From: Deltaproteobacteria bacterium
GTDB lineage: Bacteria > Desulfobacterota > Syntrophia > Syntrophales > JACQWR01
NCBI GenBank assembly: GCA_016209105.1
Contig: JACQWR010000018.1
Span: 242,030 to 306,029, forward strand
DNA length: 64,000 nucleotides
Direction: 5' to 3'
Made by a program: the position numbers and the translations under genes. The notes below the pieces were generated by a model. The model was not told the origin of the DNA, searched no databases, and saw only the letters and a program-made list of their open reading frames with translations. Positions 16,185-19,436 of the stretch are shown piece by piece (the first letter of the stretch is position 1; each line of letters opens with the position of its first letter).

Positions 16185-16490
16185 ATGAAAAAGAAAGGCC
16201 CTACCAAAGATCAAAAAACACCGAGCGCAGATTCGGCTGTGGCATCCGGCGCGGTTTGCTCCGTGATCGCGAAGAGGTGCAGGGGATGCGGGACGTGCGT
16301 TTCCGTGTGCACTTACGGCGCGGTACGGTTGCGCACCACGAGAAGCGGAAACAAGGCAATCGTGGACCAAAGCCTCTGCAAGGGCGATGGCCTTTGCTGT
16401 TCTCTCTGCGCAACAGGGGCCATCGTGCTACGGGATTCTCCAGACGAAGAGATAATCAGGCAAATTGACGTCGCCCTCGGACTTGTATAG
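16185..16490 (+). CDS. 4Fe-4S ferredoxin-type protein
   Basis: CRGCGTCVSVCTYGAV and CKGDGLCCSLCATGAIV; ATG follows the promoter-like sequence. Confidence 0.8.
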   Translation: MKKKGPTKDQKTPSADSAVASGAVCSVIAKRCRGCGTCVSVCTYGAVRLRTTRSGNKAIVDQSLCKGDGLCCSLCATGAIVLRDSPDEEIIRQIDVALGLV

Positions 16491-16541
16491 GGGCGCAGGA
16501 CGGAAGACGACCGCGTGCCGCCGCGGGCAAGGTGCAATCGA

Positions 16542-17375
16542 ATGACGACGGGCAGCAGTCTCAGAATCGTAGGTTTCGTGTGTCACTGGTGAGGGTACGG
16601 GTCTGCTGACCTGGCTGGAGTTTCCAGACTACAATACGGACCGGGAATTCGGCTCATTCGCGTGATGTGCACCGGCAGGATTGACTTGGCCTTTGTGCTC
16701 CGCGCGCTCTCGAAAGGTGCAGCCGGAGTCTTGATCGTCGGCTGCCGCATCAATGAATGCAACTATACAACCCAGGGGAACTTCTATGCGCTGAGCATGG
16801 TGAGCCTGTGCAAGCAGCTCCTGTTGCAGATCGGCCTGAACCCTGAACGGATCAGGATCGAGTTGATCTCCGGCGGCGAGGCCAATCGGTTTGCCGAAAT
16901 TGTCAATGACTTTATCGAGACCTTGCGGGGATTGGGCTCTCTCGGCGCCTCCGAAAAAATCGACAAAGCGGAGCTGGAATCCAGGTTGGAAGCCGTAACG
17001 AAGCTTGTCCCGTACATCAAGATACAGGAACGGGAAAAGCTGCAGGTCAAGCTCCAGAGCAAAGAGGAGTATCAGTCTCTTTACTCGAGCGACGAAATAC
17101 AGCAGCTCCTTCATGAACCAATCTCTTACTACATTGATCCGAACAAGTGCCAGGCCTGCATGATCTGCGCAAAGAGGTGTCCCGTGGGCGCGATCAGCGG
17201 AGGCAAGGGTCTGGTCCACATCATAGATCAGGAAAAGTGCATCAAGTGCGGAAACTGTTTTCAGGTATGCCCGCCCCGTTTCAGTGCGGTGACCAAGTTG
17301 TCCGGCCAACCGGTACCGCCGCCCATTCCCGAGGACAAGCGAGCGATCGTACGGACGAAGAAGAAAGCGGACTGA
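16542..17375 (+). CDS. MvhD/FlpD-type hydrogenase iron-sulfur (delta) subunit with 4Fe-4S domain; candidate selenoprotein (Sec = TGA 16590-16592)
   Basis: ATG 16542, in-frame: MTTGSSLRIVGFVCHW[TGA]GYGSADLAGVSRLQYGPGIRLIRVMCTGRIDLAFVLRAL..; TGA sits at the conserved Cys/Sec of MvhD; the ORF track begins only at 16662. Confidence 0.85.
16615..16627 (+). promoter_or_regulatory. Candidate bacterial SECIS hairpin in mvhD-like gene
   Basis: CTGGA-GTT-TCCAG; loop starts 27 nt after the TGA and its first base is G. Confidence 0.6.
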
Positions 17376-17426
17376 TTCCTTGTATTCCGGGGACACAATA
17401 TCAAATTCAAGGGGGGTGACCTCTCG

Positions 17427-18575
17427 ATGGGTAAACACCTGGTTTTTGTCGGCGGAGGACATGCCCATTTGACCTCCCTCAAGCTCCTCTCCAACTTCAG
17501 GAAATTGGGCCATCAGGTCACCGTGATCAGCTCCTCCCCCTATCATTATTACTCGGGCATGGGACCCGGCATGCTCTCCGGAATCTACCAGCCGCGGGAA
17601 GTGCGTTTTCATGTGAAGAAATTGGCCGAAGAGCGGGGCGCCGCCTTCATCAAAGGGACGGCCGTCAAGATTGATCCCCGCGAGCACTTCATTTTTTTGG
17701 ACACCGGCGAGAAAGTCCCTTACGACGTCGTCTCCTTTAATATCGGGAGCGAAGTTCCCGTCGAATCCCTGGCCAAAACGCCTGCCGGCAATCTCTTTCC
17801 CGTAAAACCGGTAATCAACCTCCTTACGGCCCGCCGGAGCATTTTGGAGGCGATACGAAATAACAGGATGCTCCGTTTTGTCGTGGTGGGAGGAGGTCCT
17901 GCCGGGGTTGAGATTTCGGCGAATCTCCTGGGTCTTCTGCGTGAAAACCGGGGGAGAGGAGAGATCACGCTCATCGGAGGAAAAAGACTCCTGGCCGATG
18001 CCCCTGAGAAAGCACGGCGCCTTGTGAGGGAATCGCTCACCTGCAGGGGAGTGACGATCATCGAGGGCAGCCGGGTGAAGGCCGTTGAAAAAGGACAGGT
18101 CACCTTGAGTGATGGAAAGAGATTCGACATGGATCTTGCGTTCCTCGCCATAGGCATTCAGCCGTCTTCTCTTTTTCGCGATTCCGGAATTCCCACCGGC
18201 GCCGATGGAGGAATGCTCGTCAACGCGCGCCTGCAAAGCGTGGCTCATCCCGACATCTTTGGAGGGGGCGACTGCATCAGCCTTGAAGGCCATTCATTGG
18301 CCAAGGTGGGGGTCTATGCCGTGCGGGAGAATCCGGTTCTTTACCACAACCTTCTGGCCGCTCTGGAAGGGGGAAAGATGGACGTCTTCGCGCCTCAGAA
18401 GAAATTCCTGTTGATCTTCAATATGGGAAACGGAAAAGGAATCTTTTGGAAAGGAAACTGGGTATGGGAGGGCAGGCTGGCCTTCCTTTTAAAAAATTAT
18501 ATCGACCGGAAGTTCATGAGAACCTTTCAGGTCTCCGGAGAACTCGACGAGCAGTCAGAAGGTTTCGCACAATAA
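17427..18575 (+). CDS. FAD-dependent pyridine nucleotide oxidoreductase (NDH-2-like; resembles the N-terminal domain of SelD fusions)
   Basis: LVFVGGGHAHLTSLKLL, YYSGMGPGMLSG, VVVGGGPAGVEISANL, DIFGGGDCISLEG. Confidence 0.88.
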   Translation: MGKHLVFVGGGHAHLTSLKLLSNFRKLGHQVTVISSSPYHYYSGMGPGMLSGIYQPREVRFHVKKLAEERGAAFIKGTAVKIDPREHFIFLDTGEKVPYDVVSFNIGSEVPVESLAKTPAGNLFPVKPVINLLTARRSILEAIRNNRMLRFVVVGGGPAGVEISANLLGLLRENRGRGEITLIGGKRLLADAPEKARRLVRESLTCRGVTIIEGSRVKAVEKGQVTLSDGKRFDMDLAFLAIGIQPSSLFRDSGIPTGADGGMLVNARLQSVAHPDIFGGGDCISLEGHSLAKVGVYAVRENPVLYHNLLAALEGGKMDVFAPQKKFLLIFNMGNGKGIFWKGNWVWEGRLAFLLKNYIDRKFMRTFQVSGELDEQSEGFAQ

Positions 18576-18593
18576 TGATAGCGAGATGACGTG

Positions 18594-19436
18594 ATGAATA
18601 TTTTGAACTATTTCAAACAGGTTCCAACCTGGTCGCCGGAAAAGGTCCGCCGGTTTTTAAAAGAGAAGAGTCCGGAAGAGTATAACCTGGTTGATGTGCG
18701 AACACCCAAAGAGTACGAAAGAGGCCACCTCCCCGGTGCGCGATTGATCCCGGTTGGAGAGATGGCAAATCGCCTCTTTGAAATTGATCCCCATAAACCG
18801 ACCATCGCCTACTGAGCGTCGGGAGTGCGCAGCCGGGCGGCTGCCGCCACGCTCTTGGAGGCGGGGTTTAAAGAAGTCTACAGCATGGAAGGCGGGATCA
18901 ATGCCTGGAACGGGAGGGTGGCAGAGGGAGCGCCGCAGTCCGGGATGGCCTACTTTGCTCCGGCCGCAACGCCGGAGGAGTTGGCGGCCCTGGCATGGCG
19001 TCTGGAAGGCGGATCCCGCAAATTCTACTCCGCGCTGGCCGACACCGTAACGGACCCGGAGGCAAAGGATCTCTATCGTCAACTGGCAAAGGCTGAGGAG
19101 CACCACCAAACCGCCCTTCTCAAGCTTTACGAGGAATTTTCAGGCAAGGCCTCCGCTCCGGGATTCCCGGGGGCGCTTCTTCCGCCCGGCGATGAAGACG
19201 GCGATACGATGGAAGGGGGGATGCGCGTCAGCGAGGCCCTGGAGTGGGCGAAGGGAAAAAAGACGACGGACATCCTGGAACTCTCCCTCTCCCTGGAGAC
19301 TAATGCCTATGATCTGTATATCAAGATGGAACGCCGGATGCAGGATGAACATTCCGCACAGGTCTTCCATGTCTTATCCGCGGAGGAGAAGCAGCACCTG
19401 GAACGATTAAGCGCTCTCCTTGAAAAAAGAATGTGA
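18594..19436 (+). CDS. Rhodanese / ferritin-like (rubrerythrin-type) fusion protein; candidate selenoprotein (Sec = TGA 18813-18815)
   Basis: ..NLVDVRTPKEYERGHLPGARLIP..KPTIAY[TGA]ASGVRSRAAATLLEAGFKEVYSMEGGINAWNG.. continuous frame across TGA; C-terminal EEHHQ and EEKQHLERL diiron-like motifs. Confidence 0.83.
18829..18844 (+). promoter_or_regulatory. Candidate bacterial SECIS hairpin in rhodanese gene
   Basis: GCAGCC-GGGC-GGCTGC, loop begins 19 nt after the TGA, G-rich loop. Confidence 0.65.

Follow-up and report, generated by a model that had tools for sequence, protein, structure and literature searches.

Gene content of the locus

The window analyzed here, a 64,000-nucleotide stretch from the draft genome of a Deltaproteobacteria bacterium (2.7 Mb in 29 contigs, 92% complete), holds a run of four plus-strand genes between positions 16185 and 19436 (Table 1). 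They code for a small ferredoxin, an FlpD-domain protein of the MvhD family, a flavoprotein, and a fusion of rhodanese with rubrerythrin; a long gene on the minus strand, resembling those for HrpA-type helicases, lies upstream of the ferredoxin. The second gene is open from ATG 16542 to 17375 apart from a single in-frame TGA at 16590-16592, and its true stop is at 17373-17375. When the TGA is read through, the translation begins MTTGSSLRIVGFVCHW-U-GYGSADLAGVSRLQYGPG...

A mechanical ORF finder begins this gene at GTG 16662, inside the conserved FlpD domain. An earlier reading made from the letters of the window (the sequence-only reading) had noted this same start and had carried the frame upstream through the TGA to ATG 16542; the first point was confirmed, and the second proved correct to the base. 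With the upstream part restored, the FlpD domain is full-length (residues 9-132 match positions 1-123 of 123 in PF02662, 151.6 bits vs. a cut-off of 22.3), and Pfam places two C-terminal [4Fe-4S] motifs at residues about 196-245. The start at ATG 16542 is supported by an MTTG N-terminus common to the protein and some of its homologs (L064-L066) and by an AGGTG 7 nt before the ATG.

Table 1. Features of the four-gene run, in window coordinates.
Feature	Position	Strand	Evidence
Free-standing ferredoxin, 101 aa	16185..16490	+	Pfam Fer4_6/Fer4_7; HdrA2 model positions 571-640 of 777
BamF/MvhD-type gene, predicted selenoprotein of 277 aa	16542..17375	+	PF02662 E=1.2e-44; Fer4 2e-14
In-frame TGA, predicted Sec17 in CHW-U	16590..16592	+	TGA/TGC/TGT column in homologs
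Putative bSECIS apical hairpin CTGGA-GTT-TCCAG	16615..16627	+	Kept in 26 BamF-type Sec homologs, not in Cys homologs
FAD/NAD-type oxidoreductase of the TIGR03169 (Nterm_to_SelD) kind	17427..18575	+	E=1e-82; 278 bits, under the curated cut-off of 310
Rhodanese-rubrerythrin fusion	18594..19436	+	Pfam Rhodanese 3e-22, Rubrerythrin 8.6e-13, when read through

The TGA stands at a Cys/Sec column

The sequence-only reading had placed the TGA at a conserved Cys/Sec position, and alignment with homologs bears this out. The in-frame TGA takes the place of the second Cys of a CxxC motif, and across 78 homologous sites from relatives and public genomes the codon at this column was TGC (33), TGA (31), or TGT (14). 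The motif used to choose these sites admits only Cys or TGA at this position, so that no other residue could appear among them; a pattern-free profile search and tblastn likewise returned only Cys or TGA there. The DNA search patterns were based on the Cys form, with no selection for TGA.

In a tree of 70 sequences, two label changes suffice for the Sec rows. The window protein falls within a group of 26 Sec rows (support 95/86), a number of which adjoin BamB-like genes, and its own branch is long (0.38 vs. a median of 0.069). The host genome encodes five FlpD proteins, three with CNWC and two with TGA at the second cysteine. The second of its Sec FlpD proteins (L022 and L070, at G000:C9:54353-54721) reads CEH-U-AYSAAD.

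A hairpin downstream of the TGA is conserved across phyla

The hairpin proposed by the sequence-only reading, CTGGA-GTT-TCCAG with a loop that starts with G and lies 27 nt past the TGA, is present exactly as described (CTGGA 16615-16619, GTT 16620-16622, TCCAG 16623-16627; loop 28-30 nt after the TGA). Its interpretation as a bacterial SECIS is supported by conservation across phyla; the single-sequence folding energy is unremarkable. The hairpin lies within the minimum-energy fold, but that fold is no more stable than expected by chance (z = -0.05 for 63 nt). As no Rfam family reached gathering scores in the window, we judged the SECIS by conservation. The window also contains no tRNA.

A G-bearing hairpin occurs at the same place in 26/26 BamF-type Sec homologs, whose genomes are labelled former Deltaproteobacteria, Bacillota, and Chloroflexi. 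Synonymous sites in these homologs are nearly fixed, with TCC in 26, GCT in 25, AGA in 24, GGA in 20 or GGC in 6, and GTT in 20 or GTG in 6. The GGC/GTG rows form a variant hairpin, CTGG-CGTGT-CCAG, and one homolog (L102) has G-C in place of a U-A pair, a compensatory change affecting both arms of the stem. Formal covariation is slight, with three of five pairs invariant, because the hairpin hardly varies. By contrast, Cys homologs encode the same residues with mixed codons and no common hairpin. A more distant Sec FlpD group, including the second Sec FlpD protein of the host, has another hairpin that is just as constant (CGGACCT-GGC-AGGTTCG at +20). Judged from these alignments, conservation of the hairpin is far beyond chance, and folding energy alone proves nothing.

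These data bear directly on how the TGA should be read. Were it a true stop, with the gene starting at GTG 16662, 237 codons would still be open. However, that start would cut off 40 N-terminal residues, and with them the CxWC/U motif that homologs conserve, even though the codons upstream of 16662 are conserved, the SECIS hairpin is kept at synonymous sites, and ATG 16542 has its AGGTG; we consider a true stop highly improbable. Even less credit can be given to an error in sequencing or assembly, or to a recent mutation of a Cys codon to a stop. The draft state of the genome (29 contigs, 92% complete) and the long branch of the protein might suggest one, yet the same TGA recurs in 25 further BamF-type homologs, mostly from independent assemblies and each with the SECIS. 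The presence of TGA at this position, together with the same SECIS, in independent genomes from several phyla makes a sequencing error very unlikely. The TGA thus almost certainly encodes selenocysteine, as it appears to do in many relatives, and on comparative grounds we have very little doubt that gene 16542-17375 is a selenoprotein gene of the FrhD/MvhD/VhuD (PF02662) family, BamF branch.

A second predicted selenoprotein in the cluster

The rhodanese-rubrerythrin gene also contains an in-frame TGA, at 18813-18815, exactly at the rhodanese catalytic Cys (IAY-U-ASGVRS). Close homologs have TGA or Cys at this column, and the Sec forms carry a conserved hairpin whose loop lies 18-19 nt past the TGA, for example GCAGCC-GGGC-GGCTGC. 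These features mark the fusion, at the level of sequence, as a second and well-conserved selenoprotein in the gene cluster. Sec rhodanese-like proteins are known (PMC13188914), and "rubrerythrin" is not among the words of that 2026 review. The Sec-rhodanese-rubrerythrin fusion would itself be a selenoprotein architecture not named in the review.

The host genome encodes the Sec machinery

The sequence-only reading had named selA, selB, selC, and selD as genes to look for, and all four are present in the host genome: SelB (365 bits, cut-off 242), SelA (588 bits), SelD (390 bits), and a tRNA-Sec with anticodon TCA (selC; 75 bits, cut-off 47). The host selD (L018, G000:C7:229-1146) has one in-frame TGA of its own (HGAG-U-ACK) and is probably itself a selenoprotein gene. 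A genome-wide reassignment of TGA in place of site-specific recoding would accommodate the other genes with in-frame TGA (the rhodanese gene of the same cluster and selD), but it has next to no chance of being correct, as TGA terminates both gene 16542-17375 (at 17373-17375) and the rhodanese gene (at 19434-19436), selB and tRNA-Sec are in the genome, the in-frame TGAs stand at Cys columns, and a conserved hairpin follows the TGA in both window genes.

A BamF-type protein outside a bam operon

The protein adds a member to the BamF-type branch of MvhD, within a family (FrhD/MvhD/VhuD) long known to include Sec forms. Its description in the sequence-only reading as an MvhD-type subunit was right as to the family, but it is not a plain VhuD; it belongs to the BamF branch and has an extra two-cluster ferredoxin domain. 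The BamF-type identity follows from the closest relatives, which are in bamBCDEF-like (class II benzoyl-CoA reductase) operons. Neighbors of the close relatives include an aldehyde-ferredoxin-oxidoreductase-like gene (BamB), an Fe-S protein, and an HdrD-like gene, as well as an HdrA-like gene of >900 residues and NuoE-, NuoF-, and NuoG-like genes. We take this order to match that of the class II benzoyl-CoA reductase, BamBCDEFGHI, as established for the Bam complex. In the HdrA/BamE-like genes upstream of the BamF relatives there is also a TGA, about 868 codons ahead of the part for the terminal ferredoxin (L056, L060, L062, L063, L097-L099, L102-L104, L106, L109-L111); these genes likely encode a Sec HdrA.

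Several earlier reports touch on these proteins. In Geobacter metallireducens, bamF is a "hydrogenase, delta subunit" gene (PMC1924859). A 2006 catalogue of Sec FrhD proteins includes four from Syntrophus aciditrophicus and one from G. metallireducens (PMC1794560), and the FrhD/MvhD/VhuD family is listed among CxxU selenoproteins (PMC13188914; also PMC2398784). In solved complexes, the [2Fe-2S] cluster bound by MvhD lies close to the bifurcating flavin of HdrA (PMC12350162). Cys homologs with solved structures include 5odc, 7bkb, and 8rvu.

The surroundings of the window gene are reduced. The ferredoxin at 16185-16490 is equivalent to the C-terminal Fer4 part of HdrA/BamE, with the large body missing. 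In most relatives checked, the matching stretch instead ends an HdrA/BamE-like frame of >900 (900-1000) residues; in the remainder, it is cut by contig ends or belongs to shorter HdrA-type frames of other FlpD groups. The ferredoxin was also considered as the tail of a longer HdrA frame, and this was rejected because its reading frame ends no more than 30 codons upstream of 16185 and the stretch before it is occupied by the long minus-strand gene. No BamBCD genes adjoin the window gene, which places it outside a bamBCDEFGHI operon, and a piecewise genome search found no close BamB in the host, the best match being an aldehyde-oxidoreductase with 33% identity.

Across the relatives of the order and phylum that were searched, the four-gene order was seen in the host genome only. 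In relatives, the ferredoxin-MvhD and NtSelD-rhodanese pairs are separate from each other. TIGR03169-like and rhodanese-rubrerythrin genes are conserved neighbors in the phylum, in both Sec and Cys forms (L181-L186, L188, L191, L193, L195, L215). The flavoprotein and rhodanese genes lie side by side in various other genomes of this phylum and so make up a separate unit.

Possible roles of a proposed redox module

At the level of translation, the hairpin 27 nt downstream of UGA 16590-16592 would direct SelB with Sec-tRNA(Sec) to read this codon as selenocysteine. Homology suggests that electrons move between an electron-donor module and a flavin partner via a [2Fe-2S] cluster in the FlpD domain, with two additional clusters, of the [4Fe-4S] type, in the C-terminal domain. 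The family relationship suggests one-electron transfer through the [2Fe-2S] and the two [4Fe-4S] clusters.

What this chain might serve is a matter for tentative proposals. Given that the HdrA/BamE body and BamBCD are absent, the BamF-type copy could conceivably act as an electron wire that draws on NAD(P)H or ferredoxin and, by way of the small ferredoxin and the flavoprotein, leads to the Sec-rhodanese-rubrerythrin instead of to benzoyl-CoA, although we think this rather unlikely. Its end point might, speculatively, be the reduction of peroxide or sulfane sulfur. A broader proposal, in which we place a similarly low degree of confidence, is that the four genes at 16185-19436 constitute a self-contained redox module that includes two selenoproteins, where the freed BamF-type Sec protein and the TIGR03169-like flavoprotein feed the Sec-rhodanese-rubrerythrin. 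The latter would then reduce peroxide, polysulfide, or selenium compounds. Counting against a partner role are the restriction of the four-gene order to the host genome and the occurrence of the NtSelD-rhodanese pair elsewhere without MvhD. The function of the window protein may also have shifted or weakened given its long branch, which is consistent with a changed role but would also arise from weakening selection.

The gene at 16542-17375 is almost certainly a real selenoprotein gene of a known family, and its unusual setting is possibly informative. The reduced surroundings offer a natural test of whether an MvhD-type protein is able to function without HdrA. The locus also matters for annotation: a standard ORF call shortens the BamF-type gene by 40 N-terminal residues, the redox motif among them, and deprives the second gene, about 2 kb downstream, of its rhodanese active site. 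The BamF-branch hairpin (CTGGA-GTT-TCCAG, +23 to +35) is constant enough across phyla to serve as a DNA annotation tag.

Comparison with known systems

Among known systems, the window protein is most readily set beside BamF of the BamBCDEFGHI operons of the Geobacter/Syntrophus type. It shares their domain order, about 52-66% identity with copies that adjoin BamB-, BamC-, BamD-, and BamE-like genes, and the Sec column, and with the Sec forms also the same SECIS. However, the window gene has no adjoining BamBCD, and its BamE is reduced to the ferredoxin end. Desulfobacterium autotrophicum MvhD1/2/3/5 (PMC2702500) are likewise bacterial Sec MvhD proteins from an anaerobe of the former Deltaproteobacteria; they are linked there to HdrA/HdrL genes, whereas the window gene is not. 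With FrhD/MvhD/VhuD in general (PF02662, CxxU), the window protein has in common the family domain and a predicted Sec at the second cysteine position of the motif, as in CxxU. By contrast with these proteins, it adds a C-terminal two-[4Fe-4S] domain, and its putative SECIS is of the bacterial kind and lies within the coding region.
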